A DNA stretch of 64,000 nt from Kocuria sp. Lineage in GTDB: Bacteria; Actinomycetota; Actinomycetes; Actinomycetales; Micrococcaceae. The stretch spans positions 1-64,000 of the forward strand of contig JAUNHG010000002.1 of the NCBI GenBank assembly GCA_030524035.1, given 5' to 3'. The notes below the pieces were generated by a model. The model saw only the letters and a program-made list of their open reading frames with translations. It was not told the DNA's origin and ran no database searches. Numbering within the stretch: position 1 is the stretch's first letter; each line of letters starts with the position of its first letter. Made by a program: the position numbers and the translations under genes. Below are positions 21,406 through 59,403 of the stretch, one piece after another.

Positions 21406-21422
21406 GCTCAGCGCAGCTGAGC
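21406..21422 (+). repeat. GNA-triloop hairpin, copy 1
   Basis: GCTCAGC-GCA-GCTGAGC, perfect 7-bp stem with GCA loop. Compared with the commonest form (GATCAGC/GCTGATC), one base pair differs on both sides, so pairing is kept. Confidence 0.75.
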
Positions 21423-21448
21423 AGATCGTCCGTCCAGGCGGGCGCTAG

Positions 21449-21533
21449 GGGTCCAGCTTCGGCTCCCGGGCGTGGCCTGGGAACCGGGGCTCGGGGATGC
21501 GGTGCTGAACTGCGGAGCCGAGACGCTGGACCC
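21449..21533 (+). promoter_or_regulatory. Structured leader, candidate cis-regulatory RNA
   Basis: GGGTCCAGC (21449-21457) pairs with GCTGGACCC (21525-21533), and TCGGCTCC (21459-21466) with GGAGCCGA (21514-21521). Together they make a two-part stem that closes a 47-nt internal G-rich segment about 60 bases before a lipoprotein start. No known riboswitch consensus was recognised by eye. Confidence 0.5.
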
Positions 21534-21593
21534 TCCGAAGACTCACTGCCTGGACAGGCAGACCGACCACGATCGATGCGAAAGGGCAAGATC

Positions 21594-22037
21594 ATGAACA
21601 CCACCAGGACCGCACACGTGACGCGGACCAAGCTGGCCGCGATCACCGCGGCCCTGGCAGGGATCGCTCTCGCGCTGACCGGCTGCGGCGGCTCTGCCAG
21701 CGCCAGCGCCGACGACACCTACTACACGCAGGACATCAACAACTCCGGCGACCTCGGCCAGCTGGTGGTCGAGGGTGGGAAGCTCACGCACCACGAGTAC
21801 ACCTGCGAGGGCGTCTACGAGGAGCCCGACGTCACCAGCACCGGCGAGTTCACCGAGGACGGTGCCCAGATCGTCTGGACCGTCGCGGGCAGCGACCGCC
21901 GCAACGAGCGGACCGGCACCGAGTCCGTCACCACGAGCGACACGTCGATCAAGATCGGCGACAACGTCTACGTGCGCGACGACTCCGACGCCGGCAAGAC
22001 CCTGCTGGACGCGTTCGAGGCCGACTGCTCGGAATGA
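21594..22037 (+). CDS. Small secreted lipoprotein
   Basis: 147 residues from ATG 21594; ATG 21576 is an alternative. Basic start, hydrophobic segment LAAITAALAGIALALTGC with lipobox LTGC, then a linker and a 110-residue mature domain with two cysteines (YTCEG, ADCSE). It is preceded by the structured leader and followed by its own terminator, so it is a single-gene unit. Exported and lipid-anchored by prediction; function unknown. Confidence 0.75.
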   Translation: MNTTRTAHVTRTKLAAITAALAGIALALTGCGGSASASADDTYYTQDINNSGDLGQLVVEGGKLTHHEYTCEGVYEEPDVTSTGEFTEDGAQIVWTVAGSDRRNERTGTESVTTSDTSIKIGDNVYVRDDSDAGKTLLDAFEADCSE

Positions 22038-22074
22038 TCCGTCCTCCCGCCGCTCGGCAGCAGAAGCCATCGAT

Positions 22075-22105
22075 GAGCCTCGTGGACACCTCGTCCACGA
22101 GGCTC
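22075..22105 (+). terminator. Terminator after lipoprotein gene
   Basis: GAGCCTCGTGGAC pairs with GTCCACGAGGCTC around ACCTC, 13-bp perfect stem, followed by TCGTGCTG. Confidence 0.7.
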
Positions 22106-22176
22106 TCGTGCTGCCTGCCGTCCGGCCTCGGCCTCTCCGACGACGCCCGTGCTGGACAGGGCGCAGGGGAACCGGC

Positions 22177-22641
22177 ATGACCCGCATCGCAGAGATCAGG
22201 TACTACCAGGGGCGCGTGGCCTACCCCAGCGCCGAGCAGCTGCGTGCCGCTCGGGCCACGTGGGACTTCGACGACGTCCGACGCCCGACCGAGGACGTCG
22301 ACTGCACGCACATCCAGCTGATCGAGGTCTCAGGGCGCGACGTCCGGGAGACCCGGCGGCTGGAGGAGGAGACCCTGGCCCGGTTCTTCGACTACATCGG
22401 GGCCCGGCCCGGGTTCCGCGTGCTGACCCACGAGACGCGGTCGACCTCCGGCCGCGCGACCGCCGTAGCCCACGAGATCGTGTACGTCATCGAGTCCAGG
22501 CCGACCAAGGGGTACGTGAAGCTCAAGCTGAGGTCCGAGCAGACCGGCGGCAGCGCGGCAGGCGCGGCCTCGGACGTCTTCGGCGGCGAGGGCTTCGAAC
22601 AGCTGGCCAGGATGTTCGAGCAGCGCCCCCGGAGGGACTGA
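22177..22641 (+). CDS. Unknown protein
   Basis: 154 residues from ATG 22177 after GCAGGGGA. A mixed alpha/beta soluble protein (MTRIAEIRYYQGRVAYPSAE at the start) with no signal peptide or membrane segment. Codon use is typical of the element. No family recognised. Confidence 0.6.
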   Translation: MTRIAEIRYYQGRVAYPSAEQLRAARATWDFDDVRRPTEDVDCTHIQLIEVSGRDVRETRRLEEETLARFFDYIGARPGFRVLTHETRSTSGRATAVAHEIVYVIESRPTKGYVKLKLRSEQTGGSAAGAASDVFGGEGFEQLARMFEQRPRRD

Positions 22642-22680
22642 CCCGGAGCTCGGACGGCTCGGACGTCGAGATCGAAGAAG

Positions 22681-22713
22681 AGGACCCCGTGGACGCGATG
22701 TCCACGGGGTCCT
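22681..22713. terminator. Bidirectional terminator
   Basis: GGACCCCGTGGAC pairs with GTCCACGGGGTCC around GCGAT. TCTTCTT follows on the plus strand and TCTTCTTC on the minus strand, so it serves the convergent genes at 22,641 and 22,732. Confidence 0.85.
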
Positions 22714-22731
22714 CTTCTTGCTCCGGCCGCT

Positions 22732-23339: not shown

Positions 23340-26300
23340 TCAGCTCTTCGGCTTGTCCTTCGGCTTCCTCTGCGACACGGGTCCGTCCGTGCGCTTCGGG
23401 GCCGGGTCGGCAGCCCGCCGCGGCTTGGCCGGAGTCTGCTGCTGCTGGCCCGACTCGGTGGTCGAGGTCGGAGCCTTGGACTGCCGCGTCGGGGCCTTCC
23501 GTTCCGATGCGGACGACCCCTTGGCCGGAGCCGAGGCCGGAGCGGACGAGCCGGTCGTCGGCTGCGGAACCGAAGGACGCTTGGTCGAGCCCGACGCGAC
23601 CGAGCGGTCGACCTGCTCCCGCCGCTGACCCTGCTGCGGACGCTGGCCCGCGGTCCTGGGCTGCGGCTGCGTGGCCGGGCCCGAGGTGGGACGACGGCCC
23701 TGCTGGCCTGCCGCCGAAGCCTGGGTCGGGCCCTGGACCTTCGCCTGTGGCTGCTGACCAGGGTTCGGAGCAGGCTGCGCCTGCTGAGCCGGACGAGTCG
23801 CCGCCCGACGGCCGCCCTGGGCCGGAGCCTGGGCAGTTCCGGGGACCTGCGCCTGTCGACGCTGCGCGCCCGCCTGCGGCCTGCCCTGGGCACCGGCCGC
23901 CGGGACCGTGCCCGTCGGACGAGGCGACTGCGCCGCCTGACCCGGGACGATCTGGCCCGGGATGGCCTGCGCCGGGGCGGTCTGGCCCTGGACAGGACGC
24001 GCCGTCCGGGAGCCATTCGACGGCTGCACGCCGGGAGCGGAGGCCCCACTCTGCTGGGTCGGAGCCGCAGGAGCGCCGGAAACAGCCGGCGTGCCCGCGC
24101 GACCGGGATTCAGCTCGGCAGCGCCGCCGGTGCGACGGGTGCCAGCGCTGAACTTCGGGTTCTGCCCGTTGCCCTGCGGGGCCTTGCCACCGGAGGCCTG
24201 CGTCGGACGCGAGCCCGCACCGGCCTGGCCAGCGGGCTGCTGACCCTGGGCGGCACGAGTGGCCTTCGTGCCCGGGACGACAGGCGCGCCCGGAACCGGA
24301 GCGCCTCCCTGCGCGGACGGAGTGCCCGGCGTACCCTGAGCGCCCGCCGAGGCGGGGACGCCTGCACGGCCCGGATTCAGCTGCGCCGGACCGCTGGTGC
24401 CCGCGGCGAAGCGTGCCCCGTTCTGCGGCTGGCCGTCCTGGCCCGAGGAGGCCGGAGCGCCCTGCTGGCCGATGCCGAACTGCGTCGAGCTGGACTGGCC
24501 GGCGATCGCCTTGCGGCCGCCGCTGGTGCGCTCGGTACTCTCCGAGCCCGACTGGCCGACGCCGTTCTGGCCGCCGGACTGCCCCAGCTGCTTCGTGCCC
24601 GGAGCGCCCTGCGCCCCGCCGACGCCGAAGCTGGTCTGGCCGCCGGTGACATCTCCGCCGCGCGGGGACGAGCCCCGGCCGCCGCGGACGTCCGTGCCCG
24701 GCTGGCCGCCGCCCTGAGCGGGCTGCCCGTTCCGGCCTCCGCCCGCACCCTGCTGGTCGCCGGTGCTGTAGCCGAGGTTCGACAGGCCGCCCTTGCTGTT
24801 CAGAATCTGCGCGGTCTCCTTGTCGGAGCGCGAGCTGCCCGGCTTGCCGCTGGTGAGCTGCAGCGGGCCGCCCTTGTCGCCGTCGGAGCCGCCGTTCGAG
24901 CCCGCAGGGCCCTCCGCGCCGCTTCCCGTGGGCAGGGCACGGACGTCGGAGAAGCCGCCGCCGCCCGGGGGAGGAGGAGGGCCGTCGTTCCCGCCGCCGC
25001 TCGGCGCGTCGTCGGGGCCCTTGCCCCCGTCGAGGGCGAGAGCGCCCTTGCCCGCGGACAGCGCCTTCGCGTCGCCGTTGAGCCCGCCGGCGTTCGTCGA
25101 CGCGTTCTTGCTGCCGCCCGGGTTGCCGCCGGACTTCGGCGACTTCGAGCCGCCGCCGAGCTTGCTGCCGACGCCCGAGGCGAGCTTGTTACCCATGGCC
25201 ATGCCCGCGCCGGCCCCGGCTCCCGCGGCCAGCGCCGGGAGCATGCCGCTCTTGTCCGGCTTCGGCGCGGTGTTGGTGTCGAGGAACTTGTCCACGAGCT
25301 TGGTGAACACCTCGTCCATCGCCTGGAGCACGACCTTGCGCACCCGCAGGAGGGCGAAGGTGATGCCCATGACCAGCAGCGAGGAGATCAGGGTCAGGAT
25401 GACCACGATGATCCCGCCGAGCAGCGAGGAGCCCCACAGCCCGTCCTGGGACATAAAGCTGGACACCGGTCCGGCGATGATGTCCGGGATGGAGATCAGC
25501 AGCTCGGAGACGAACTGGTAGATGAACAGCGTGACGATGACCTCGAGGATCAGCGCGACCGAGTAGACGATCACCTTGCTGATCGCCGCGACCGCTCCCA
25601 GCGTCGCGAACGGGATCGCCGCCACGAGGCTGAAGGTGCGCTTGACCGCTCCGACCAGCATGCCGATGGCGTACCAGAAGCCGAGCAGGACGATGCTGCC
25701 CAGGACGGTCCCGGCGTTGTGCCAGTACATGAACTTCGCCGGCCCGGTGCCGACCTGGCTGACGGCCATGTGGTCCTCGCGGGTCAGGCCGCTGGTCACG
25801 TTGTTCGAGCTGTACATCGTCATCGACTCGGGGCCGAATCCGGTGTTCAGGTAGTTGTAGGCCGACAGCGCCGACATGTTGCACGAGACCGGGGCGTCGT
25901 CCGCCCAGACTCTGAAGCCGCAGCCGTGCTTGGTGCCCTGCGTCGTGAACGTCGTCGAGTTCCCGCCCGGGTTCGACGACGTCAGGCCCTCGCCGCTGAT
26001 CGCCAGCACCGGGTGGTTGGTCGGGACGTAGTCGGTCTCCTCGCCGAACTTGTCCGAGTCGCCGTAGCCCTTCTCGTCGACGAACCACTCCTTCTTCACG
26101 TCGTTGCCCACGCCGAGGTTCGTGATCGAGCTCTTGATGCCCGACTCGAAGTCCGACGCGGCGGTCTTGTTGCCCGAGATGTAGTTGTTCAGGATGCCGA
26201 AGGTCGCGGCCACCGCGCTGAAGTCCTCGGAAGCGCTGCCCTCCATCCCGACCATGCTGTTCTTCCAGGCCTCCTCGGCGTCCGTCGCCCGGTTGCCCAC

Positions 26301-27530
26301 GTTGAGGTCAGCGAAGGTCGAGCCGTGCGACTGCTTGTTGATCGCCAGCGCCGTAGTCCGCACCGACATCATCGAGTCGTTGCTGGCCTGGCCGTTGTCC
26401 CAGGCGATCAGCGCCCCGTCGGGGATGCCGAGCCGGTCGTTCATCATCCACGCCTCGAAGTCGACGTAGGTCGAGAGCACGACGCGGGTCGGGCCGGCGT
26501 GCTGGCCCACCAGGGAGTCGTCGAACTTGTCGAGGACGCCGGTGTACATCGAGCCCAGCAGAGGCAGGCCCACGCCGATGAAGACGACGCGGACGATCAG
26601 CTTCTTGATCGCCGAGCCGCGGTCCATCTTCTTGAACAGGACCAGGCCGATGAGCAGGAAGCCGATGAACAGCGGGACCAGCGCCTCCCAGGCGATGGAC
26701 TGCAGCAGCCCGTACCAGCTCGAGATCCAGTGCTGCAGGCCCGCCAGGGCCCCGCCGCCGGTGTGGCACGTCTCGGCCATCGTCGTCGGATCCGTGGAGC
26801 AGACCATGCCGTCGGCGAGCTCCTGCTGGTGGGAGCTGTTGGTGTTGCCGCTGGCGTCCGCCACTCCGGCGACCGCCTGGTAGAACCACATGAACGGGTT
26901 CAGCATCTTGAGCAGCTGGATGATCAGGTAGAACAGCGCGCCCACGGCCAGGGCCAGGGCGTAGAGCAGCCACATGATCCCGCCGCCGATGAGCGAGATG
27001 ATCTGCCCTCCGATGCCCGAGGACATGGTGTCCAGGCCGAGGTCCGCGTTCGCCGCGCCGAAGTGGGCGTAGTCGATCATGCCCGAGTAGACGTCGGTCT
27101 CGTCGCTGCCTCCGGTCCCCTTGAGGGTGTCGTAGCTGATGGTCTGCGTGGAGCCCGTCGCCTCGGCGAAGAGCCAGCCGACGACGTTGAACAGGCTGAA
27201 CTCCGGGTCGGCGTAGCCGAGCATGCCGCCGCCCGTGCCCGGGTTGGCGGTGATCGCGCGCCAGTCGCCGTTCATCCTGTCATCAGGGCTCTCCCCGCCC
27301 TCGGGGGAGTTCTCCTCGCTGAAGTACGTCGAGGCGTTCGACGCCAGCTGGTACAGCGAGTAGTTGTCGCGCTCGTCCTCCTCGGCGTGCGCCGCCGGCG
27401 CGAAGGCCGACATGAGCAGCGGCAGGACGAGCGCCGCGAGCAGCGCCAGGGCCAGGACGCGCGCCAGCCCGCCCCGGGCGTCCGCTGCGCCCCGGGCCCG
27501 CGCCGCGAGCGTGGTGATCCCGTTCATCAT
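23340..27530 (-). CDS. VirB6/TrbL-like T4SS membrane protein with long disordered tail
   Basis: 1,396 residues. A signal peptide ends at AHAEED. About eight hydrophobic segments follow, for example GGGIMWLLYALALAVGALFY, PLFIGFLLIGLVLF, IVRVVFIGVGLPLLGSMY and LLGGIIVVILTLISSLLVMG. A large extracytoplasmic part lies between them. After about residue 770 the protein is a Pro/Gly/Gln/Ser-rich tail of over 600 residues with imperfect repeats (two copies of LNPGRAG inside longer repeats) and a basic end. The order with the two upstream genes matches the PrgI-VirB4-VirB6 region of Gram-positive conjugation systems, so a channel role in the membrane is likely. ATG 27530 has AGAGGGA upstream; ATG 27566, which overlaps the preceding stop as ATGA, is an alternative. 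Confidence 0.75.
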   Translation of the reverse strand: MMNGITTLAARARGAADARGGLARVLALALLAALVLPLLMSAFAPAAHAEEDERDNYSLYQLASNASTYFSEENSPEGGESPDDRMNGDWRAITANPGTGGGMLGYADPEFSLFNVVGWLFAEATGSTQTISYDTLKGTGGSDETDVYSGMIDYAHFGAANADLGLDTMSSGIGGQIISLIGGGIMWLLYALALAVGALFYLIIQLLKMLNPFMWFYQAVAGVADASGNTNSSHQQELADGMVCSTDPTTMAETCHTGGGALAGLQHWISSWYGLLQSIAWEALVPLFIGFLLIGLVLFKKMDRGSAIKKLIVRVVFIGVGLPLLGSMYTGVLDKFDDSLVGQHAGPTRVVLSTYVDFEAWMMNDRLGIPDGALIAWDNGQASNDSMMSVRTTALAINKQSHGSTFADLNVGNRATDAEEAWKNSMVGMEGSASEDFSAVAATFGILNNYISGNKTAASDFESGIKSSITNLGVGNDVKKEWFVDEKGYGDSDKFGEETDYVPTNHPVLAISGEGLTSSNPGGNSTTFTTQGTKHGCGFRVWADDAPVSCNMSALSAYNYLNTGFGPESMTMYSSNNVTSGLTREDHMAVSQVGTGPAKFMYWHNAGTVLGSIVLLGFWYAIGMLVGAVKRTFSLVAAIPFATLGAVAAISKVIVYSVALILEVIVTLFIYQFVSELLISIPDIIAGPVSSFMSQDGLWGSSLLGGIIVVILTLISSLLVMGITFALLRVRKVVLQAMDEVFTKLVDKFLDTNTAPKPDKSGMLPALAAGAGAGAGMAMGNKLASGVGSKLGGGSKSPKSGGNPGGSKNASTNAGGLNGDAKALSAGKGALALDGGKGPDDAPSGGGNDGPPPPPGGGGFSDVRALPTGSGAEGPAGSNGGSDGDKGGPLQLTSGKPGSSRSDKETAQILNSKGGLSNLGYSTGDQQGAGGGRNGQPAQGGGQPGTDVRGGRGSSPRGGDVTGGQTSFGVGGAQGAPGTKQLGQSGGQNGVGQSGSESTERTSGGRKAIAGQSSSTQFGIGQQGAPASSGQDGQPQNGARFAAGTSGPAQLNPGRAGVPASAGAQGTPGTPSAQGGAPVPGAPVVPGTKATRAAQGQQPAGQAGAGSRPTQASGGKAPQGNGQNPKFSAGTRRTGGAAELNPGRAGTPAVSGAPAAPTQQSGASAPGVQPSNGSRTARPVQGQTAPAQAIPGQIVPGQAAQSPRPTGTVPAAGAQGRPQAGAQRRQAQVPGTAQAPAQGGRRAATRPAQQAQPAPNPGQQPQAKVQGPTQASAAGQQGRRPTSGPATQPQPRTAGQRPQQGQRREQVDRSVASGSTKRPSVPQPTTGSSAPASAPAKGSSASERKAPTRQSKAPTSTTESGQQQQTPAKPRRAADPAPKRTDGPVSQRKPKDKPKS

Positions 27531-27562
27531 TCCCTCTCTGTCCGTCGTGTCCGTGGTCGTCC

Positions 27563-29803
27563 TCATGGCTTGCGCAGCTTCCGTGGAGCCTCGCCGGCCT
27601 TCTTCAGGACCTTCTTCTTCGCCGCCGGCCGGGCGGCGGGCGTGGGACCCTCGTCCTCCTCGGACTCGACGCTCTGGCGGGAGCTGGTGAGCTTCGCGCC
27701 GGGAGCCGGCTTCTCCTTCATCAGCTGGTCCATCCGTGCGGCCTCCTCCGACTTCGCCGCTTCGAGCCGGACCCGCCTGCGCTGGGCCTCGCGGTAGGGG
27801 TTGATCCCCAGCGCGAGGTCGAGGTGGAAGACCACGTTCGACACGTCGCGGCGCAGGTACATGAGGTTCTCGCCCTTGGTCGTGATGAGCTGGGCGAGGT
27901 CCGGCGGGATCTGCTGGTGCAGCTGCTTCTGGTACTCGGCCACGGTGCGGTCGCGCATCGGGCCGAAGAGCGTGTAGTCCGCGGCGTCGAACTTGTTGAA
28001 GTCCGAGTCCCCGAGCATCTTGTCGACGTCGTTGTAGCTGTAGACCACGCGGCCGCCGCGCTCGTGCATGTGGTCGAACTGGTCGCGCAGGTACTTCTTC
28101 ACGCCGTCGTCGATCTGCTCGGTGCCGTGGATGACCACGGTGTCGCCGAGGCCGAGCTTGCCGACCGCGAAGCCCACGATGTTGACCAGCTGGGCCATGG
28201 CCACGCCCTTGCCGCGGCGCATCAGCCGCGAGAAGTCGTAGACCACGCGCTTGGCGTCGCGGACCCCGTCCACCGCCGAGGCGGTGTGGTTGTTGAAGAG
28301 GTCGCCGTTGGTCGAGAGCATGTTCGACGCGATGCCCTTGAGCACGTTGTACGCCCGCAGCTGGTCCGGGTCGGTCTTCGAGCTGTTCACCAGCGTCTTG
28401 TGCGCGGTGTCGAGGTACGACACGAACATCTGCAGCCGCGGCACCTGCTGGTGCGGGATGTTCACCACGCGCAGGCGGTGCCGCTGCTCCTTGGCGTTGT
28501 GCCGCCACATGCCCTGCTCGACGTAGAAGTCCGTCGCGGTGTCCTCCAGCGCGCTGCGGATGATCGAGGCCACCGAGCCGTCGGTCGACTCGTAGAGCTG
28601 CTCGAACATCAGCTTGAGCTTCTCCATCTGCGAGGCGAAGACCGTGAGCTCGTCATCCTCCTCGCCGAACATCTCGAAGGGGTTGACGTCGCCGCGGTTC
28701 AGGTCCACGCGCGAGGTCAGCCGGTCGAACGTCGGGCCCAGCCTGTCCAGGCTCGCCCCGTCGAGGACCAGGTGGACCACGGAGCCGTTGGCGAGCATGC
28801 AGGCCTGCGAGAGCTTCGAGCACCACATGTTGGACACGCGCTGGCGGTCCAGGTACTCGCTGAGCGTCGCGTCGGCGACCACCACATGGTGCTCGTACCG
28901 GTTCACGTCCATGAGCACGGCGGAGTTGTTGACGTCGCCGACCATGTAGCCGACGTACTCCCCACCCTTGTCGTTCAGGCCGTTGGTCACCAGCGAGTAC
29001 GAGCCCGCGAGCTCGGTCGAGGTGTAGTGGAAGCCCTTGCCGCGCTTCTTCTCGTTGTTCTTGAACAAGCCCGAGAGCTCCTGGCGCTGCTCGCCGGCGT
29101 AGGCGGCGGCCTTCAGGGTGCCGAAGCGGTCGATGTACAGGCGCGTGACGCGGTCGATCGAGTCCTCCAGCGCCGCCAGGTCCGGGGCCTTGAGGAACAG
29201 CCGGTTGTGCACCGACAGGTAGCTCGCGCCGTCCTGGATCTCGCCGATCGTGACCTCGAGGTCCGAGGAGATCTTCGCGGCCTTGCGCTTGGAGGAGGTC
29301 GTGCCCGTCTCCTCCTGCTCGTTCGCGTCGAGGCGGTCGAGCTTCTCGGACTGCTTGGTGAACGAGTCGATCCACTTCTCGTCCATGCGGCGAACCTGCT
29401 CCAGGACCACCGCGGTGACGCGGTCGTCGAGGCCGTCCGGGATCCGGTCGATGCCCCAGAACGCCGCGAAGTTGTCATGGGCCGCGTCGTCGTGGAAGAA
29501 CGCGAGCACGCACGCCACCGAGTCGTCGACCTCGAAGTAGTCGGAGCGGAAGAGGTACTTCTCCCGCGGCTTGAGCGCCAGCAGGTGCGGGTACGAGTCG
29601 AACCGCCCTTCCAGCTTCTTCATTTCTTGGCGGCGCTGCCACCAGTTCAGCTTCGGCTCGGGGGCCTGCTCCGCCTCGGCGGCGGGAGCGCCCGCGACGG
29701 CCGCCTCCAGCTCCTCGGCCGTCGGCGTCTCCGCCCTGTCTCCGCCATTGGACTTCTTCCCCGGGATGCCCAGCTGCTCCCGGGCCTTCGTCATCAGCGC
29801 CAT
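27563..29803 (-). CDS. VirB4-like conjugation protein with degenerate ATPase motifs
   Basis: 746 residues. The VirB4/TraC layout is recognisable: GEYVGYMVGDVNNSAVLMDVNR, then the strand leading to the P-loop, later RGDVNPFEMFG (the INPFD landmark), and a C-terminal helical part. Where Walker A (GxxGxGKS) belongs, the protein reads HHVVVADATLSEYLD (near residue 306), with no Gly-Lys-Ser. Where Walker B (a hydrophobic strand ending in DE) belongs, it reads DTVVIHGTEQIDD. It therefore probably cannot hydrolyse ATP and may be a structural partner. ATG 29803 has AAAGGA upstream. The VirB6-like gene follows immediately. Confidence 0.75.
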   Translation of the reverse strand: MALMTKAREQLGIPGKKSNGGDRAETPTAEELEAAVAGAPAAEAEQAPEPKLNWWQRRQEMKKLEGRFDSYPHLLALKPREKYLFRSDYFEVDDSVACVLAFFHDDAAHDNFAAFWGIDRIPDGLDDRVTAVVLEQVRRMDEKWIDSFTKQSEKLDRLDANEQEETGTTSSKRKAAKISSDLEVTIGEIQDGASYLSVHNRLFLKAPDLAALEDSIDRVTRLYIDRFGTLKAAAYAGEQRQELSGLFKNNEKKRGKGFHYTSTELAGSYSLVTNGLNDKGGEYVGYMVGDVNNSAVLMDVNRYEHHVVVADATLSEYLDRQRVSNMWCSKLSQACMLANGSVVHLVLDGASLDRLGPTFDRLTSRVDLNRGDVNPFEMFGEEDDELTVFASQMEKLKLMFEQLYESTDGSVASIIRSALEDTATDFYVEQGMWRHNAKEQRHRLRVVNIPHQQVPRLQMFVSYLDTAHKTLVNSSKTDPDQLRAYNVLKGIASNMLSTNGDLFNNHTASAVDGVRDAKRVVYDFSRLMRRGKGVAMAQLVNIVGFAVGKLGLGDTVVIHGTEQIDDGVKKYLRDQFDHMHERGGRVVYSYNDVDKMLGDSDFNKFDAADYTLFGPMRDRTVAEYQKQLHQQIPPDLAQLITTKGENLMYLRRDVSNVVFHLDLALGINPYREAQRRRVRLEAAKSEEAARMDQLMKEKPAPGAKLTSSRQSVESEEDEGPTPAARPAAKKKVLKKAGEAPRKLRKP

Positions 29804-29852
29804 GTCGCCCTTCGTCCTTTCTTCGTTCGTGTCGTCTCGAGATGAGGGCGCG

Positions 29853-30806
29853 TCAGGCCGCGATCTTCTGCTCGTGGGAGTCGTCGGAGGGGCCCGGCAG
29901 CGCTCCTGCGTCGAGCGCCTCGCGCGGGGCCAGCCGCTCCTGCTCGATCCCCTGGTAGAAGACCCGGAGCATCGGCTCGGTCTCCTCGCGGTCGAGGACC
30001 GTCGCCTCCTTAATCATCAGGGAGGACCCCTCCACCTCGGCCTGCAGCACGAGGTGGGCCTTCCGCAGGGCGTCCTCGCTCTTGCCCTTGAGCAGCAGGT
30101 ACTGGTGGATCGAGGTGAACTTGCCGCCGACGTGCTGCGTGAGGATGTCGTACTGCTCGTTCTGCAGCTCGATCAGGTCGGGGTCCCGGACCTCGAGCGC
30201 CTGGTTGCGGTGCTCGAGGTTCGCCACCTGGTGGTAGATCCGCTGCGGCTCCTTCGTGGTGATGAAGGACCACTCGCAGGTGGTGTCGATCTTGCGCCAG
30301 AACGAGTCGACGCGGTCCAGGATCGAGATCCGGTCCTCGTCGAACAGCAGGTACGACGCCGACCCCACGACCAAGTAGACCTGACCCTCGCCGCCGTCGG
30401 AGTAGTGGATCCGGCCGTCCTCCTCGATGCCGTCGATCCCGACGATCGAGTAGAAGTCGCTCGGGTCCGAGCTGCGGCGGGTGTACACGTGCCGCGCCTT
30501 GGCCGGCGCGTACGCCAGCAGGGCGGGCACCGTCATCGCCCTCAGCTCCTTCGTCCTGGTCATGCCGCCGAAGTAGAAGATGGCCAGCAGGCCCCAGATC
30601 ACGAAGAGCGTGATGAACACCGGCCCCGAGCTCCCCACGAAGGTCTGCGTCGTGACCCACAGCAGCGCGAGCATGCCGCCGCCGATGAAGAACAGCTGCT
30701 TGATGGGAGAGGGCTTCGCCGCCCAGCCGCCCTTGCTCAGGGTGATCTCGTGGTCGAGGAACGACCTGTTGAGGCTCGTCGGCACCTTGTACGACATCTT
30801 CGCCAT
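29853..30806 (-). CDS. PrgI/VirB3-like conjugation protein
   Basis: 317 residues from ATG 30806 (MAKMSYKVPTSLN), with AGAGGGAGAG upstream. Two transmembrane helices lie near residues 33-52 and 56-76 (IKQLFFIGGGMLALLWV and VFITLFVIWGLLAIFYFGG), followed by a long cytoplasmic part rich in charged residues. Its position directly before the VirB4-like gene and its topology fit the PrgI/VirB3 role; the long C-terminal part may be related to the VirB4 N-terminal domain (inference). It is the first gene of the minus-strand T4SS operon. Confidence 0.65.
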   Translation of the reverse strand: MAKMSYKVPTSLNRSFLDHEITLSKGGWAAKPSPIKQLFFIGGGMLALLWVTTQTFVGSSGPVFITLFVIWGLLAIFYFGGMTRTKELRAMTVPALLAYAPAKARHVYTRRSSDPSDFYSIVGIDGIEEDGRIHYSDGGEGQVYLVVGSASYLLFDEDRISILDRVDSFWRKIDTTCEWSFITTKEPQRIYHQVANLEHRNQALEVRDPDLIELQNEQYDILTQHVGGKFTSIHQYLLLKGKSEDALRKAHLVLQAEVEGSSLMIKEATVLDREETEPMLRVFYQGIEQERLAPREALDAGALPGPSDDSHEQKIAA

Positions 30807-30928
30807 GAAACTCTCCCTCTTACCCCACTGGTCTGTCCGCGCCTGTCCGAATGCCCTCATAGACGAGGGATACATGACTACTCTACCTCAGACAGGCCTG
30901 TCGAATCGAGCGTGACAGGCATACGAAT

Positions 30929-30978
30929 GGCACCGCCCGATGAGTCGGACTCGCGGTCCGACGCCATCGGGCGGTGCC
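30929..30978. terminator. Nested inverted repeat between topoisomerase and T4SS genes
   Basis: GGCACCGCCCGATG pairs with CATCGGGCGGTGCC (14 bp). Inside it GTCGGAC pairs with GTCCGAC. There is no clear T-run, but the position downstream of the topoisomerase gene and upstream of the T4SS promoter suits an insulating terminator. Confidence 0.6.
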
Positions 30979-31069
30979 GTGCGCTGCTTGCCTGCCTGCT
31001 CAAGTAGTCTATCTGACTGCTTGTCGAATTGTCAGTCGAGACCAGTCGACTCGGAGGCGTGCTCGGACC

Positions 31070-33490
31070 TCAGCCGAACGAGGGCACGAGCTTCTTCTTG
31101 CCGCCCTCGTCCTTCCAGGTGAGGCTCGCGTCGAACTTCTTCCCCTTCTTCGAAGTGAAGCCCTTGCCCGAGATCGTCTTGCCCGCGGCCAGCGCGGCGA
31201 GCTGGTCATCGGTGAACGCGACGCCGCACCAGCTCTTCGGCGGCGTGTCCAGCGAGGACTCGAAGTCGGGGACGATCTTCTTGCCCTCGCCCTTCTTCTC
31301 CTCCTTGAAGAAGACCTTGCACTGGAAGCGGTTGCCCTTCTTCGAGACGAAGTCGCTGGACTCGACGCCCTCGCCGGCCATGAGCCGGTCGATCTCCTCC
31401 TGCGTGAAGGTGTACTGGCACCAGGACTCCGGTGGCAGGGTGTTGCCGTTCGCGTCGCGGCGGCCGAAGCCGAGCTTCTGGAACCCGACGTACTTCCGGC
31501 CCTTGAAGGTGCCCTCGGCGAGCTCGCCGAAGACCTCGTAAGCCTTGCCCGTGCTGCTCTTGGCCGAGAACTCGATCGTCTCGCCGGCCAGCAGCTTGGC
31601 GACCTCGTCGTCGGAGAACCGGTGGCCGCCCCACTCGCGGGCGAAGACGACGGCCTTGCCCGTCTTCGACCAGATGCCCTGGGCGCGCTCCTTCTGGACG
31701 ACCGCCTCCTCCTTCAGCCCGAGCTCGGAGCGCATCGTCGCGGCGTTCTTCTGCATCGTGGCGATGTCCTCGCGGACCCAGTCGGCCACGACGGCCAGGC
31801 GCGCCTCGGCCGTCGCCCCGGCCCCGGCGGCGATCTCCTTCATGTCGGCGTAGACCTTCTCGGTCAGCGCCAGGTCGCCGATGTGGGTCCCGGGAAGCAG
31901 CCTCCAGCTCATGTCCCCGGCCTCGGCGAGGGTGAGCTTGCGCCCCTTTTCCACCAGCAGCGGGTACTTCGTCTTCGTCGAGGTGACCTCGGAGTAGGTG
32001 CTGGTGCGCGTGGCACCGGTGCCCACGTCGCGCTTCTCCAGCTGCTTCATCAGCCACTTCATGCTCGGGTGCTCGGGACGCTTGTTCGCGCCCTCGAAGA
32101 CGAACGGCTCGGCGTTGGTGCCCAGGCCCTTCGCCGACTCGTTCTCGTCGCCCTCGACCGAGTCGTCGCCGGCGTCCGGGTCGAAGACCGCCTTCCAGCC
32201 CGGCGAGAGCGGGACGTTGGTGATGCCCACGAAGTCCGGGTACTTCTCGACGTGGCCCTTCTGCTGCTCGTAGACGTAGTCCTCGGCGATCATCGCCAGG
32301 TAGTTCTTGCCCAGGGTCTCGTAGATCAGGCGGCCGGCCTTGCCGAAGCGCTGCTCGACGTCGTCCAGCGAGGACGGCACCTTCGGGCCGGGACGGTTCG
32401 CGCCGTGCGCGCCCTGCGCCTTCACGTGCGTCTTGCGCGGCTCGCGGTGCGTCAGGTGCTTGGCGTCCACCCCCACGACGGCCGCGATCCTGTCCACGTG
32501 CGGCGCAAGCTCGTTGAACTGCTCGGGCGTGATCGTCTTGTCCTCGGTGCGGGGATAGCTGACGACCTGCGCCTCGTACATCTTCTGATAGGTCGACAGC
32601 ACCAGCTGCGCCTTGACACCCTTGCCGACCAACAGCGAGGACAACGCCGCCAGGTCCAGCAGCCGCGGCGGGGCGGTCTGCGTCTTCGCCTTGCCGTCGA
32701 GCACCACGGGGGAGGGGCCGTACTGGTTCGGCACCTGCTCCTTCTGGTCGAACCGCGGCTCCTCCGGGTTCGTGTACATCACGTCGTTCTCGTCGCGGAA
32801 CCGGTTCTGGAAGAACGGCTTCTTGACGTAGTCGTTGTACGCCTTCAGCTGGTCCCCGACGAGCTTGACCATCGCGCTCTTGAGCCTGCCCTGGCGCAGC
32901 ACGGTGTTCTGCCCCGACTGGCGCGCCATGTTGGTGGCGATGCGCGTGAACTGCATCGAGAGCAGGTCGAACTGCGAGCGGTAGCGCGCCTTCTTGTACT
33001 CGTCGAAGTCGAGCAGCGACGGGATCGCCTTGCGGCTCGCGAACGCCTTCTGCAGCGAGGCCGCGGCCTCGTCGGTGAAGTACATCCGCGACCACGTGCC
33101 CGGCTTGAGCCCCAGCTCGAGGAAGGCGTTGACCGCGATCATGCCGCCCTCGCCGGTGGGGTCGACATCGGTCGCGATGACGATCTCGTCGCACTTGCCC
33201 AGCGTCCGCTTCACGTCCTGCGCGACCGAGCTGGCGTCCTTGATCACCTCCAGGCTCCAGTCGAGATCCTCCGGGTCCCACGGCAGGTTGCCCAGCTCCC
33301 AGGTCCGGTACTTCTCGGACAGCTCCGCGTCGCCGACCATCTTGTGCGGATCGACGAACTCGTACAGGTGCCCCCGGGCGTGGGCGATGACGTACTGCTC
33401 CCCGTTGTAGGTACCGATCGTGCCTCCGAGGGCTGCGGCGAAGTGCCGCGCCGCGCTCGGCTTCTCGGTGAGGATCCCGACAACCATCAT
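31070..33490 (-). CDS. Type IA DNA topoisomerase (TopB/TraE-like)
   Basis: 806 residues. The Toprim domain opens with TEKPSAARHFAAAL and has DVDPTGEG (metal-binding acidic residues near residue 105). The active-site tyrosine lies in VVSYPRTEDKTI, and HGANRPGPKVPSS follows. The C-terminal 250 residues contain repeated topo-C modules (AKLLAGETIEFS, DRLMAGEGVES, AALAAGKTISG). Such TopB-like enzymes are common on conjugative plasmids, where they resolve single-strand intermediates. ATG 33490 or 33487 may start; GGAG precedes both. It is transcribed towards the T4SS genes but has a terminator between. Confidence 0.9.
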   Translation of the reverse strand: MMVVGILTEKPSAARHFAAALGGTIGTYNGEQYVIAHARGHLYEFVDPHKMVGDAELSEKYRTWELGNLPWDPEDLDWSLEVIKDASSVAQDVKRTLGKCDEIVIATDVDPTGEGGMIAVNAFLELGLKPGTWSRMYFTDEAAASLQKAFASRKAIPSLLDFDEYKKARYRSQFDLLSMQFTRIATNMARQSGQNTVLRQGRLKSAMVKLVGDQLKAYNDYVKKPFFQNRFRDENDVMYTNPEEPRFDQKEQVPNQYGPSPVVLDGKAKTQTAPPRLLDLAALSSLLVGKGVKAQLVLSTYQKMYEAQVVSYPRTEDKTITPEQFNELAPHVDRIAAVVGVDAKHLTHREPRKTHVKAQGAHGANRPGPKVPSSLDDVEQRFGKAGRLIYETLGKNYLAMIAEDYVYEQQKGHVEKYPDFVGITNVPLSPGWKAVFDPDAGDDSVEGDENESAKGLGTNAEPFVFEGANKRPEHPSMKWLMKQLEKRDVGTGATRTSTYSEVTSTKTKYPLLVEKGRKLTLAEAGDMSWRLLPGTHIGDLALTEKVYADMKEIAAGAGATAEARLAVVADWVREDIATMQKNAATMRSELGLKEEAVVQKERAQGIWSKTGKAVVFAREWGGHRFSDDEVAKLLAGETIEFSAKSSTGKAYEVFGELAEGTFKGRKYVGFQKLGFGRRDANGNTLPPESWCQYTFTQEEIDRLMAGEGVESSDFVSKKGNRFQCKVFFKEEKKGEGKKIVPDFESSLDTPPKSWCGVAFTDDQLAALAAGKTISGKGFTSKKGKKFDASLTWKDEGGKKKLVPSFG

Positions 33491-33915
33491 TCGACTCCTT
33501 CTCGTCGGTGACTCGTAAACCAGTCACAAGTCTATCGTAGAAAGCCGGTCGAGTCATGAGTCGACAGAGTCGCGAATGGGTCGGGACTGACGCGATCCAG
33601 GTGCGGAAGAGGCTCGCGCCGGCACGGGTTTCGACTGTCTGCTCCCGGTGGTCGGCGGCAGAGGGGAAGGCCGTCCTGCGGTTCTCGCATCGGAAGAGCG
33701 CGGACGCGGCGTCAGGCGCTTGGGCCTCGTCGGATCCGACGAACTCCGCCGGTGAGGTTCCCCACCTGCGAAAGCACTGATATACGAGTCGAATCGAGAG
33801 GACAGCGACTCGATCCGGCACTCTGAACAGATCCGAGGTCTCCTATTACGAGCCCTTCTCGAGTAACGTTTAAAGGGCCGCCGTTAGCTTTCGCCAGACC
33901 TCAGGAGCACGTCCC
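33491..33915. other. 425-bp intergenic region with divergent promoters
   Basis: No credible gene. It holds TACGATAGACT at about 33,520-33,530 (minus strand), a possible -10 for the topoisomerase gene, and TATACGAGTCG at 33781-33791. A locally AT-rich AACGTTTAAA lies near 33,867, just before the next gene. Confidence 0.5.
33781..33791 (+). promoter_or_regulatory. TATACGAGTCG motif
   Basis: Same element as at 21386 and 54534, 135 bases before the next plus-strand gene. Confidence 0.35.
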
Positions 33916-34407
33916 ATGGCCGTCGACCACGCCTTCCTCCGCACACCCCAAGACTTCAAGAGCATGCTCGTCGACATGCAGGAGGGCAGCTGGCCCCCGG
34001 ACGAGGCCGACGTCATCCGCATAGCCCAGGCCTGCTCGATGCTGATCGAGTGCGTCGACGCGTGGGAGACCTCCACGCACGGCAAGAACGTCTTCGACGT
34101 CGACCGCGGGGAGATCACCACGGCCGAGCTGCGCCGGATCCTCGCCCAGGAGGTCGCCCTGAGCTACGAGGGGGACGTTGCCGTGCTGCTGGTCCCGCCG
34201 GGGGAGGAGCGCGTGCGCGTCGAGATCCGCGCCGACGTGGACGAGTTCCAGGGCCTGCTGCGCCGGCCGGAGATGGTGCTGGACTGGGAGCACGACGGTG
34301 AGGAGCACGAGCACTACATCTCGCTCAAGCCCAAGGGCCCGCACTGGTACATGCTCTCCCAGCTGCGCGACGACATGAAGGAAGGGCGGCTCAGCGTCCG
34401 CTCCTGA
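33916..34407 (+). CDS. Unknown protein next to umuDC
   Basis: 163 residues from ATG 33916, with AGGAG upstream. Soluble, acidic, with helical N-terminal and beta-rich C-terminal halves (VAVLLVPPGEERVRVEIRA). It lies 67 bases before umuD on the same strand but upstream of the SOS box, so it is probably not in that regulon. No family recognised. Confidence 0.65.
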   Translation: MAVDHAFLRTPQDFKSMLVDMQEGSWPPDEADVIRIAQACSMLIECVDAWETSTHGKNVFDVDRGEITTAELRRILAQEVALSYEGDVAVLLVPPGEERVRVEIRADVDEFQGLLRRPEMVLDWEHDGEEHEHYISLKPKGPHWYMLSQLRDDMKEGRLSVRS

Positions 34408-34444
34408 GATTCAAAGCCGTCGGCACGGGGGTGTACCATCGTAT

Positions 34445-34460
34445 TCGTACACATGTTCGA
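34445..34460. promoter_or_regulatory. LexA (SOS) box before umuD
   Basis: TCGTACACATGTTCGA differs at one base from the actinobacterial LexA palindrome TCGAAC-N4-GTTCGA. It ends 14 bases before the umuD start, over the likely promoter. This implies DNA-damage induction through the host LexA. Confidence 0.8.
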
Positions 34461-34474
34461 ATGCTAGGAAGCCC

Positions 34475-34960
34475 ATGACACCGACGACCCTCGGGGAGCC
34501 CGTCCCTGCCGCCTTACTGGAGCCCCTCGTGCTGCGCCTCGCGCCCGAGGCCGTCCCATGCGGGTTCCCGAGCCCGAGCCAGAACTACTTCTCCGGGGAG
34601 TTGGACCTCGGTGAACGCCTGATACGCGACCGGGCCTCGACGTTCATCTGGCAGGCGTCCGGGCACTCGATGACCGGGGCCGGCATCCACGACGGCGACC
34701 TGCTGCTCGTCGACCGTGGGGTGACCCCTGTGCGCGGCCACGTCGTCGTCGCCGTCGTGGACGGCGAGTACACGGTCAAGCGGCTGGACTCCGTCGACGG
34801 CCGGGCCGTGCTGCGGGCCGACAGCCCCGATCATCCCGACGTCCTGCTCGACGAGCACTCGGAGCTCACGGTCTGGGGCGTCGTCATCTGGTCCATCCAC
34901 TCCACGGCCGCGCCGATCCCCGGCGGACGCCCGTCCGGCTCCAGCGCCCGGCGTGGCTGA
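34475..34960 (+). CDS. umuD: UmuD-like S24 autoprotease
   Basis: 161 residues. A self-cleavage site Cys-Gly lies in AVPCGFPSP near residue 28. The nucleophile serine is in [12 protein letters not shown] and the catalytic lysine in [10 protein letters not shown]. There is no DNA-binding domain, so this is UmuD rather than LexA. UmuD processing activates the translesion polymerase made by the next gene. It overlaps umuC by eight bases. Confidence 0.92.
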
Positions 34961-36251: not shown

Positions 36252-36292
36252 TCCAAGCCGCGCACCGTCGAACGAATGGGAGAATTGCCGAT

Positions 36293-36463
36293 ATGGAAGT
36301 AATACTCGCCATCGGCCCGATCGTCGGCTCCGACGACATCGACGACCCATCGCTGCATCGCCACATTTCGGCCGAGGCCGACGGCTACGACGATGCGTTG
36401 GCCCTGGCGCGTGAATCGGTACCAGACGGCTTCCGCATCCTCAACATCCGCACTGCACGGTGA
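36293..36463 (+). CDS. Small acidic protein downstream of umuC
   Basis: 56 residues from ATG 36293, with GGGAG upstream. Sequence is alpha/beta-like (MEVILAIGPIVGSDDIDD). It lies 41 bases after umuC, before a terminator, so it may be the last gene of the SOS-controlled unit. No family recognised. Confidence 0.55.
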   Translation: MEVILAIGPIVGSDDIDDPSLHRHISAEADGYDDALALARESVPDGFRILNIRTAR

Positions 36464-36487
36464 GGCCGTGGCCGAGCAGAAAATGAA

Positions 36488-36517: not shown

Positions 36518-36532
36518 CTTCTTCGTCTGCTC

Positions 36533-37194: not shown

Positions 37195-37231
37195 GGCACC
37201 AGTCTAGACCCTGCGAGTTCTAACGGCAACG

Positions 37232-45405: not shown

Positions 45406-45466
45406 TTGCTTTTGCTCACTGGACGACCTGGATCCCGTGCGCTCCGTCGAATGGCGAAGCAGGGGG

Positions 45467-45483
45467 GATCAGCGCAGCTGATC
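45467..45483 (+). repeat. GNA-triloop hairpin, copy 7
   Basis: GATCAGC-GCA-GCTGATC then CGGAG, 52 bases before the leader ORF start. Confidence 0.8.
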
Positions 45484-45534
45484 CGGAGTGTCTGCGCAAG
45501 AGCATCACCGTTTCGCCCGAAGAAGGAGACAGGC

Positions 45535-48263: not shown

Positions 48264-48293
48264 TCCTCGTTCTCGTTCCTGGGTGCTCTTCGA

Positions 48294-48308
48294 ATCGGCG
48301 GAGCCGAT
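48294..48308 (+). repeat. GNA-triloop hairpin, copy 8
   Basis: ATCGGC-GGA-GCCGAT followed by CCGG. One stem pair changed from A-T to G-C on both arms relative to the common form. Confidence 0.8.
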
Positions 48309-48364
48309 CCGGATTTGGGATCGAAGGGCATCGACGTTCCTTCACGACCAGGAGGAGCAGCGCC

Positions 48365-49586: not shown

Positions 49587-49609
49587 TTCTTCTTTCTCCC
49601 GCTGGGAGG

Positions 49610-49626
49610 GATCAGCGCAGCTGATC
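49610..49626 (+). repeat. GNA-triloop hairpin, copy 10
   Basis: GATCAGC-GCA-GCTGATC then CGGG, 23 bases after the terminator stem and 79 before the next start. Confidence 0.8.
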
Positions 49627-49705
49627 CGGGTTCATCCCTGAAGCACGACTTCATCGACCAGGAGGGGATCGCCATCCCCAGCATCACCAAGGAGCGCTGA
49701 TCGCC

Positions 49706-51926: not shown

Positions 51927-51940
51927 CGATTCGTTGACGC

Positions 51941-57536: not shown

Positions 57537-57873
57537 GGACCAGTGAGAGACCACTAAGAGGCCACGCGAGAACGATGCTCGATTCGCGGCCTCGGGCCAC
57601 TGGGCGCACTCGGGTCCTGTCAGCGCCACCGGCAGGACCAGCAGGAGTCCACCGCCGGGGCAGCGCGCCAGGAGGCGCTGGCCCGGCCGAGGTCTCGAAC
57701 CAGACCGGCACGCGGTCCTCTATGGATCAGCAGGAGACCTCGATCAAGCCACGGCCCGACGCAGGGCCGACCGCGGTCCTCATGAGACGCAAACGAGCCC
57801 ACGAAGAGACCTTCATCGGTCCACCTCCGAGACGAAGACCAGTGCAGACCCGCAAGAGACCAGCATCGGACCC
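57535..57873. repeat. Candidate parC centromere
   Basis: Six degenerate 20-bp direct repeats of the form RGACCAG-N7-GACC lie at 57535, 57634, 57723, 57804, 57834 and 57854. The copies at 57804 and 57854 match at 16 of 20 positions. They stand directly upstream of parR and overlap its promoter, the classical place for parC. Recognition is by eye and needs an alignment. Confidence 0.55.
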
Positions 57874-58640
57874 GCAGTGCGCCGAGCCGAGCCCAGGAGA
57901 GCGCCACCCGGCACTCGATAGGGTGCGAATGCCCTGTCTGGACTCATTCGGGTCTCGCTCGTGTCCCTGTCGGGTCGCTGTACGGCCACAGTGAGACAGG
58001 ATCTGTCCGGATTGGGACCGGGATCAGTCCTGCGATTCCAGCCCGAGCGGGGCCGTGAAGTACGGCTCCGGAGCCCCTGTGCCGTCCGCCGGCGACGCCT
58101 CGGGGCGATGATGGAGCGCCGGCGAGGCGGCTCCAGGCAGCGGCGTCGGAGCAGGATCGGAACGGGATCGGAGCACGAGCGGGTCGGTGGCGTCACCGAC
58201 CCGTCTGGGGCCCGCAGGAAGAGCAGAGGGAGAAGGCGAGATGGGGTGTAGGCCCCCGCAAGGAGCGAGAGGGCGAGGGCTCCGCTACTCGCAGCGACTC
58301 ACGGTCGGCGAATGTCCAAACGACGAGGGCTCGTGAATCGCTGCGAGTAGCTGCTCCTGGTGGGAGACCCAGACGGCTCGGCGACGCTGGAGGAAGAAGG
58401 TGCACAGCTGCTCCCGGGACCCTGGTCGCATCCCGGGGGATCTCCTCTTCTGATGCGTCCACGAGACAGTGGCCCGGCGGCAGGGGAGCGACGGCCGGGC
58501 CCGGACCGGGCACCGACGAGAATGCGCGGAAGCGCCCGCCTCGGACGCGGTGCGACAGGTGCTGGCGCGACGATGATGCGGTGTTGGACCAGCGCGGTGC
58601 GATCAGTGCACCGGCCTGTCGATGCAGTGCTGAAACCACA
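57874..58640. other. Intergenic region without credible genes
   Basis: Open frames exist on both strands but lack ribosome sites, plausible starts and protein-like composition. I see no clear RNA fold or repeat here apart from short G+C-rich palindromes. Confidence 0.5.
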
Positions 58641-58643
58641 GAG

Positions 58644-58652
58644 TTTTCCACA
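58644..58652 (+). promoter_or_regulatory. DnaA-box-like site
   Basis: TTTTCCACA, one mismatch from the bacterial and actinobacterial DnaA box TTNTCCACA/TTGTCCACA. Confidence 0.5.
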
Positions 58653-58777
58653 GCCTGACGCGACGAGGTCGCGAAGAGTGGAGGGCGCTGCGCGCCACGG
58701 CTGAAGCGCCTGCGGCAGCACGGTGCGACGGTGCCCGGACCGGACTGCGCCCGTCGTCGCTGACGCTCGATCCGAGG

Positions 58778-58953
58778 ACCCGTACGGGTACCCGCTCGTG
58801 CCTCGCGGTGGGGCGGAAGAAGCACCCGTACGGCGTTGCCACGGTCGGCAAAAGGGTTGTACGCCCAAATGGTGCTGTGACCAGGCGAAACGTCGCGACC
58901 CGTACACCCGCTGCGCGGATGGAGAGGGGGTGTACGGGTCAAGGGTGTACAGG
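58778..58953. repeat. GTGTACGGG inverted and direct repeats
   Basis: GACCCGTACACCC (58897-58909) and GGGTGTACGGGTC (58928-58940) are a perfect 13-bp inverted repeat; GGGTGTACAGG (58943) repeats the unit. ACCCGTACGGGT (58778) and CACCCGTACGG (58823) are related. Likely binding sites of an initiator, relaxosome or repressor protein. Confidence 0.6.
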
Positions 58954-59234
58954 CCGTTTCCCCTGATTTTCCAGGCTTCCGCTAAAGCTCCAGCCGTGGA
59001 ACAGCGAGAAGGCGGCAAGAGAGGAAAAAGGGCATAAGGGAACCTGGCAACACGGTCCTTCGGACCCTAGCTCCGCTCGGTCCCTCCGCTGCGCTCCGGG
59101 ACGTGTTGGTCGGCATAGCCGACGGGTTCCACCGTTCGCTGCGCTCACCGGTCCGTCCGGTCGCTGGCGCTCCCTCCCGGCTATGCCCAGCGCTGCGCTT
59201 GAAAGGAGGATGCCCACCGCCTGCCCCGCCGCAG

Positions 59235-59243
59235 TTGTCCACA
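59235..59243 (+). promoter_or_regulatory. DnaA box
   Basis: TTGTCCACA, the exact actinobacterial consensus, amid the CGCTGCGC repeats. Confidence 0.55.
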
Positions 59244-59358
59244 GGTGGACGACGCGGCAGATGGCGCAGCCAGGCGGTGGATCGCCTGGCGCTGCGCGCC
59301 CGGCTCGTCCGAGGAGGACGGCCCGTCGGCCGGTCCGCTGCGCGGCCCAGTCGGAGCG

Positions 59359-59376
59359 GATCCCGCAAGCGGGATC
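59359..59376 (+). repeat. 8-bp hairpin GATCCCGC-AA-GCGGGATC
   Basis: Perfect stem with a two-base loop on paper (really four), 15 bases before GNA hairpin copy 11. Confidence 0.55.
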
Positions 59377-59390
59377 GGCGGGCCGTCAGG

Positions 59391-59403
59391 CCAGCGGAGC
59401 TGG
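59391..59403 (+). repeat. GNA-triloop hairpin, copy 11
   Basis: CCAGC-GGA-GCTGG. Outer pairs differ from the common form but pair. 98 bases before the next start codon. Confidence 0.65.

Follow-up and report, generated by a model that had tools for sequence, protein, structure and literature searches.

The window analysed here, a stretch of 64,000 nt of Kocuria sp. (contig JAUNHG010000002.1, positions 1 to 64,000, forward strand), carries part of a putative MobL-type conjugative element. As rnc and mutM, which lie to the left of the element, are core genes, its left end is placed near 21.1-21.6 kb; the right end was not found. From the border of a leftward transfer operon onwards, along a rightward region, the element carries a recurrent signal. 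Its coding strand shows a stem of 6-9 bp that covaries and a triloop of the type C-[G/A]NA-G, followed by CGG and, at fixed spacing, a YGAA box. The features to which we refer below are as follows, with hairpin scores in bits of a covariance model:

23340..41728 (minus strand): transfer-side genes, with a VirB4-like gene at 27563-29803 and topoisomerase III at 31070-33490
41943..41984 (plus strand): first site, with the leftward transfer operon on one side and the rightward region on the other; GGATCAAC-GGA-GTTGATCC, then CGG, then a CTCGAC box; 39.8 bits
42197..42239 (plus strand): doubtful member; 9-bp stem, GCA loop, box off by one; 22.2 bits
44463..44505 (plus strand): most upstream of a tandem set of hairpins that precedes ssb; 38.1 bits
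44563..44605 (plus strand): middle hairpin of this set, box TTCGAAAGA; 38.2 bits
44608..44650 (plus strand): proximal hairpin of this set, box TCTGAGAGA; 46 bits
44726..45202 (plus strand): ssb by gene prediction; PF00436 at 4.4e-11 on 44684-45202, with an earlier ATG at 44684
45465..45507 (plus strand): hairpin heading a presumed unit at 45.5-48.2 kb, with a terminator-like structure upstream; 37.3 bits
46928..47560 (plus strand): nuclease of the SNase family inside that unit (PF00565, 2.7e-8)
48291..48333 (plus strand): hairpin ATCGGC-GGA-GCCGAT heading 48365-48958, behind a terminator; 37.9 bits
49098..49140 (plus strand): hairpin heading 49166-49423, behind a terminator; 44.2 bits
49554..49587 (plus strand): intrinsic terminator, 21 nt ahead of the hairpin at 49608..49650
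49608..49650 (plus strand): hairpin heading 49706-50086, which encodes a 126-aa protein; 42.7 bits
59109..59123 (plus strand): companion hairpin GTCGGC-ATA-GCCGAC, found at a matching place in 7 of 11 element stretches
59387..59429 (plus strand): hairpin GCCAGC-GGA-GCTGGC, 96 nt ahead of a gene at 59501; 30.1 bits

An earlier, sequence-only reading had listed eleven C-GNA-G hairpins as one family, and all eleven were found at the positions it gave, some with stems one pair longer or shorter. Over the whole window, such hairpins with a stem of at least 6 bp number 11 on the plus and 2 on the minus strand, against a mean of 0.57 and a maximum of 3 on the plus strand of dinucleotide shuffles (n = 60). 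With stems of at least 5 bp the counts become 13 and 8, and five-pair stems are therefore background. As to membership, nine of the eleven hold together: those at 41944, 44465, 44565, 44610, 45467, 48294, 49100 and 49610 score 37.3-46 bits and that at 59391 scores 30.1, whereas 42197 is doubtful on score and box, and 21406, at 16.4 bits and with neither the box nor the CGG that follows the hairpins of the core family, was ruled out. Palindromes arising by chance in GC-rich DNA account for 21406 and the five-pair stems, but as an explanation of the core sites chance is refuted by the excess over the shuffles and by conservation across genera, and we give it practically no weight. Across the 2.3 Mb of the own genome, a search for GATCAGCGNAGCTGATC allowing two mismatches at most gave 10 forward matches, 8 of them inside the window, and 5 reverse matches, all being the same palindromes as forward ones; from this concentration the hairpin family is a property of the locus and not of the genome. 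No hairpin reached the gathering score of the curated Rfam models, and the single sub-threshold match within 41700-50200 fell on another palindrome. This is a long inverted repeat at 42097-42155 (arms of about 23 bp by eye), situated between the first site and 42197, and the match was to mir-H11. Four stem-loop strings did not occur in the literature text searched, which leaves out most subscription papers, and no title on such hairpins was found among the matches listed for single-strand promoters, establishment genes and actinobacterial conjugation.

For the comparison of sites, 120 candidates from 11 elements were collected, of which 18, including 42197 and 21406, were removed on visual inspection, either as chance or because they were unassigned; 91 distinct sequences were left and 71 were aligned, near-duplicates and all ATA-loop sites but one being omitted. 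The GNA loop originally described is present at all eleven listed hairpins, although the true rule is wider: in 101 of the 102 curated sites, part of which had been picked by the loop itself, the loop is C-[G/A]NA-G or [G/A]NA, the remaining one being GCG, and the C-G closing pair is missing in one site. Compensating stem changes, likewise claimed at the outset, were evident as strong covariation. In the 71 aligned sites, part of which had been selected by pairing, standard pairs fill 96.6% of the pair cells as against 83.8% after shuffling, two-sided change is seen at six of seven pairs, and two-sided cells number 63 as against 11.3, with 0 of 500 shuffles as high; these figures are not p-values, because related sites are not independent. 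When the pairing partners were slid, the covariation collapsed. A profile of primary sequence alone recovered 62 sites with 434 pair cells, of which 402 are consensus, 13 two-sided Watson-Crick, 10 G-T, 1 A-C and 8 other, 7 of these last at the outermost pair. The wobbles (10 G-T versus 1 A-C) indicate that it is the plus strand that folds. ViennaRNA energies do not rank these triloops and hence were of no help. The exceptional stability as single-stranded DNA that had been ascribed to C-GNA-G mini-hairpins agrees with the literature on GNA loops (PMC4686876, PMC6479982).

A double-stranded operator, in which a dimeric regulator would bind the palindrome beside a promoter, might be suspected from palindromic sites repeated ahead of units, and regulated establishment promoters do exist on p576. 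We consider it improbable, as the different stems of the window element (GATCAAC, GATCAGC, ATCGGC, GCCAGC) are all symmetric, the centre is not palindromic, the wobbles are strand-biased and, as described below, -10 boxes are scarce.

With respect to gene context, one hairpin, or the tandem set in the case of ssb, heads a unit of possibly several genes in our own gene prediction, and ssb and the SNase gene are among the genes of such units. The distance of 50-100 nt to a start codon proposed earlier was borne out at 56, 84, 96 and 99 nt from the foot of the stem, and at 79 nt between 49610 and the predicted start at 49706, but not at one site with 48 nt nor at 45467 with 130 nt. The value of 84 nt belongs to the first site and leads to an ATG at 42046 that is absent from our gene prediction, the next predicted gene start being 385 nt away; the stem of this site is also present in 8 other elements and leads the fetched array in 7 of these. 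A terminator-like structure lies within 125 nt upstream of 13 of 42 sites (single-base shuffles, 2.0; opposite strand, 1), in the window including 45466, 48294, 49099 and 49609. The sites tend to head predicted transcription units, partly right behind a terminator.

To define the downstream part of the signal, 94 sites, none of them with an ATA loop, were reduced to 48 non-redundant ones. The G (41/48), A (31/48) and A (27/48) of the YGAA box stand next to one another at positions 14-16 after the foot of a 7-bp stem, no conserved sequence was found upstream of the hairpin, and conservation across these sites is confined to hairpin and box. By eye, the distance from the box to the ribosome site is variable. 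The usual actinobacterial -10 box, TANNNT, is present in the 100 nt upstream at 4 of the 48 sites and in none of the 48-nt regions downstream, whereas it is found in 55 of 67 regions that lie upstream of genes from eleven further families in the same elements, a control picked after the first TANNNT test had been seen (dinucleotide shuffles: mean 34.1, 0 of 200 as high as 55). Several transfer-side minus-strand genes also carry TANNNT upstream. The plus strand of 41728-52400 holds two TANNNT in total; TAGGGT at 45345, the only one on this strand between 41.7 and 52.3 kb, is located 120 nt ahead of hairpin 45466 and by eye is not kept in two close relatives. In the 250 nt before the first site TANNNT occurs in 1 of 9 elements, a count that promoters lacking TANNNT would escape, and no sigma-70 consensus pair was detected in 41700-50300, where 0.3 would be expected by chance. 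Given this scarcity, transcription of the hairpin units either begins without such a -10 box or comes from elsewhere. Anatomy, conservation, position and the scarcity of -10 boxes are, in this sense, properties of the sequence itself.

An RNA leader is a tentative but serious alternative that we rank as a close second to the start-signal proposed below; hairpin and YGAA box would then function within the mRNA, like put, nut or conAn, as the binding site for a factor that the element supplies for RNA binding or antitermination. This reading accommodates the fold of the coding strand with its G-T (in RNA, G-U) wobbles outnumbering A-C by 10 to 1 as well as the terminators between units, and pLS20-family conjugation operons do employ a protein-RNA antitermination system (PMC8955417). 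It fits less well with the lack of a conserved upstream part and with the rarity of TANNNT before the first site, and the box keeps, by eye, a constant distance to the hairpin but not to the ribosome site. Moreover, the triloop type is known to be very stable as DNA, and the sites recur unit by unit, whereas conAn stands at the operon start.

The window and its relatives share a backbone of topoisomerase III, SSB, a ParM-like protein, Lsr2, a RecJ-like DHH protein and a CAAX protease; beyond the window follow a primase-helicase and a 1059-aa protein, and the own genome also encodes a MobL relaxase (PF18555, 6e-103). The 1059-aa protein (own contig 68227-71406; L071:4227-7406), which gave no Pfam or NCBIfam match and adjoins a D5-like primase, carries what we take to be family-B DNA polymerase-like motifs. 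An exact 20-base pattern was found in 34 stretches of a species-genome collection and had zero matches in viral contigs. Seven of the 34 are by eye probably due to chance, having no box, which leaves 27, 18 of them from Streptomyces and the others including Arthrobacter, Pseudarthrobacter, Promicromonospora, Nocardiopsis and Kribbella. In nine genomes with fetched loci the matches, among those listed, cluster in one locus and are nearly all on the same strand. The one-sided strand use noted earlier was also seen in the relatives: 41 model hits were obtained in 15 of the 34 exact-pattern loci, and in 12 of 12 multi-hit loci all hits share one orientation. Such one-strand arrays on the shared mobile backbone are present in Streptomyces, Arthrobacter, Pseudarthrobacter, Promicromonospora and Kribbella. 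One relative that comes with an annotation is a 639-kb plasmid, from Streptomyces sp. NBC_01454, and Streptomyces turgidiscabies Car8 has hairpin sites too (L012, L028, L030), carried by a contig of 717 kb. Rhodococcus plasmid stretches were used for gene content alone.

A search with the polymerase among 396 genomes of the order returned the own genome, G603 (74%) and G507 (41%). The prediction of a hairpin array was then borne out in G603, a genome found via the polymerase alone: of the 13 covariance-model hits there (E up to 1), 9 share the strand of the polymerase and fall within 54 kb around it. The stems there are new (CGTCGGC, ATCGGC, CCGGC, GGTCGGC), the loop type is unchanged, CGG and box mostly follow, and none of 8 distinct sites has TANNNT in the 100 nt upstream. 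G507, whose polymerase is distant, showed two weak matches and no array. The R1 search of 394 class genomes matched 15 genomes at E up to 0.01, with an array in the own genome only (9 matches); in each of the remaining genomes between one and four were obtained, at 29-36.5 bits, and these are presumed to be chance. The polymerase search gave no match in 8 genomes of the genus around G257, and no polymerase relatives were found in viral contigs or phages.

Placement ahead of genes, as had been expected for related elements, was seen in the alignment within the family, at 7 of 12 sites of the NBC_01454 plasmid (at most 200 nt from the next same-strand annotated start) and in the distant plasmid pGKT2 of Gordonia sp. 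KTR9, which shares VirB4, topoisomerase, SSB, ParM, RecJ-like, primase and polymerase genes. In pGKT2, 7 of 13 C-RNA-G triloops with stems of at least 6 bp are intergenic and at most 200 nt upstream of a same-strand gene, compared with 16 of 225 other triloops (p = 3.7e-5), the limits having been chosen after the hairpins had been seen. Its stems show no relation to GATCAGC, and the fit to the box is partial. Six of the seven placed hairpins are on the minus strand, one of the seven lying 192 nt ahead of ssb, and the transfer genes are on the plus strand, a layout which fits a transferred strand that is also the hairpin-folding strand.

Some further features of the window element deserve mention. 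Plus-strand genes are interspersed among the transfer-side genes at 33.9-36.5 kb, with a UmuC-like gene at 34953-36251 between minus-strand transfer genes, and a UmuD-like match came from a pooled scan including 34475-34960, without assignment to a single member. The 126-aa protein has homologues in 11 of 11 elements (two fragments in G012) and a poor predicted fold (predicted local distance difference test score, pLDDT, 48). A 107-aa protein has a good predicted fold (pLDDT 88), no PDB match at E up to 0.001 and four matches in a viral library, uncharacterised or unnamed. The interval 57384-59500, 2.1 kb without predicted genes, holds the hairpins at 59109 and 59390 and further inverted repeats, and is possibly an origin or partition site; this pair (GTCGGC-ATA-GCCGAC and GCCAGC-GGA-GCTGGC) recurs at a spacing of 181-286 bp in 7 of 11 element stretches, and the companion at 59109 gave no covariance-model match up to E 0.5. 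Promoter regions without hairpins (30806-, 33490-, 40619-, 41728-, 61208-, 66045+) by eye repeat TCGAAT/ATTCGA/CAGTCGA-like words, possibly operators of an element repressor.

Among known systems, EGeRS1 of pLS20 is the closest functional analogue. This plasmid has a MobL-type relaxase and five establishment operons headed by EGeRS1, which fold as single strands; the one EGeRS1 tested is without a sigma-A promoter and blocks read-through, and the transferred strand cannot serve as template, the mode of switch-on being stated as unknown (PMC8708921). Our element is likewise MobL-type, with transfer and presumed establishment genes on opposite strands; several of its establishment-type operons are each headed by a structured sequence, a housekeeping promoter seems to be absent as judged by TANNNT, and the terminator-like structures ahead of part of the sites may block read-through, an effect shown in pLS20 for one EGeRS1 copy. 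By MobL homology the transferred strand would be the non-template strand here too; that is, if the pLS20 rule holds, it would be the plus strand, on which the hairpins fold. Unlike EGeRS1, with its long conserved region of about 420-751 bp, multiple inverted repeats and complex folds, the signal here spans ~35-45 nt and comprises hairpin and box only, and on the coding strand C-RNA-G triloop hairpins of at least 5 bp were found in none of the five EGeRS1 copies, two occurring elsewhere on this strand of pLS20.

The virion RNA polymerase promoters of N4 resemble our sites in that their core is a small hairpin, closed by a C-G pair and with a sheared G-A in its triloop, and there GNA-type hairpins on the template strand become promoters after extrusion and the action of SSB (PMC4496689). 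In the sites compared, however, the favourable loop is on the coding strand, for which reason an N4-like promoter was rejected, and no such polymerase was identified here. Frpo/ssi promoters also precede ssb and other early genes of conjugative elements, with -35 and -10 boxes folded into a duplex on the entering strand (PMC11541004), in contrast to our sites, near which no such boxes were seen and where the folding strand is the coding strand. Of the roles offered by the sequence-only reading (single-strand promoter, landing site or RNA hairpin), a direct single-strand promoter of the Frpo type is disfavoured: loop and G-T wobbles favour folding of the coding strand, and a transferred strand that, by homology with pLS20, is the coding strand would provide no template. 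The conAn system combines a structured RNA with repeated terminators on conjugative elements, put being mentioned in the same paper (PMC8955417), yet conAn acts on complexes that come from the main promoter, whereas our sites are repeated from unit to unit and showed no promoter.

We favour, at a probability of roughly one half, the interpretation that a MobL-type conjugative element uses a bipartite, strand-specific start-signal for its establishment-type units, of which the hairpin is the upstream half; a start-signal that depends on a folded coding strand is preferred because of the pLS20 precedent, the stability of GNA mini-hairpins and the hairpin promoters of N4. Promoter function, the identity of the transferred strand and activation after transfer are what we infer. 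Hairpin and box would replace an ordinary promoter and fire only while the coding strand can fold, with RNA polymerase entering near the YGAA box. Folding could come about in two ways: the coding strand, by homology to pLS20 the transferred one, may fold while it is single, or the palindrome may extrude in supercoiled DNA, with SSB clearing the less stable loop of the template strand. In the resident element the genes would be silent and insulated, with a brief switch-on after transfer. The stability of GNA mini-hairpins as single-stranded DNA, the tandem set ahead of ssb, the sites with no gene nearby and a folding strand that would be the transferred strand could also point to a priming or processing site for complementary-strand initiation, whose association with genes would be a by-product; this we regard as unlikely, given that many sites head transcription units and that the conserved box is on the gene side.

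Several observations weigh against the start-signal interpretation. The strand evidence fits an RNA leader equally, and as the genes of the region share one strand, the orientation of the hairpins relative to genes and relative to the element is inseparable. The 13 two-sided cells of the profile-found sites represent three kinds of change, 8 of the cells being in orthologues of the first site. The upstream shortage of TANNNT is modest against the dinucleotide mean of 8.5 (8 of 200 shuffles as low), the value used here in place of the 24 expected from single-base shuffles, which overstates the shortage; the downstream shortage is by itself not significant (mean 2.0; 28 of 200 shuffles). TANNNT is also absent from 12 of the 67 control regions, including 7 of 9 before the ParM operon, and it lies close upstream of 2 of the 6 minus-strand sites of pGKT2. 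By the rule used, 29 of 42 sites have no terminator, and 5 of the 12 NBC_01454 sites are 375-524 nt from the next annotated start, with no close gene. Finally, no dedicated polymerase or sigma factor was identified among the element proteins: family scans revealed no single-subunit RNA polymerase, several large proteins remaining without a match, and a weak match to sigma region 4 (E 0.0016), seen for one of the 56 small proteins, was not assigned.

The hairpin family provides a sequence marker for a family of conjugative elements in actinobacteria that bring along a polymerase, primase, topoisomerase III and SSB of their own. As natural compensatory variants exist and the signal is small, each of its parts could be tested by simple reporters. 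A bolder form of the start-signal interpretation, possible but well short of an even chance, is that it represents a new class, in which the fold of a GNA mini-hairpin promoter on the coding strand, being the one transferred, takes the place of a sigma-factor box and licenses establishment genes just after conjugation. How establishment genes of the pLS20 type are expressed when the transferred strand is the coding strand is stated as unsolved; the start-signal, if true, would suggest how such promoter-less operons get switched on, with a comparable signal here shrunk to ~40 nt, present in 9 copies in one element and found across several genera.

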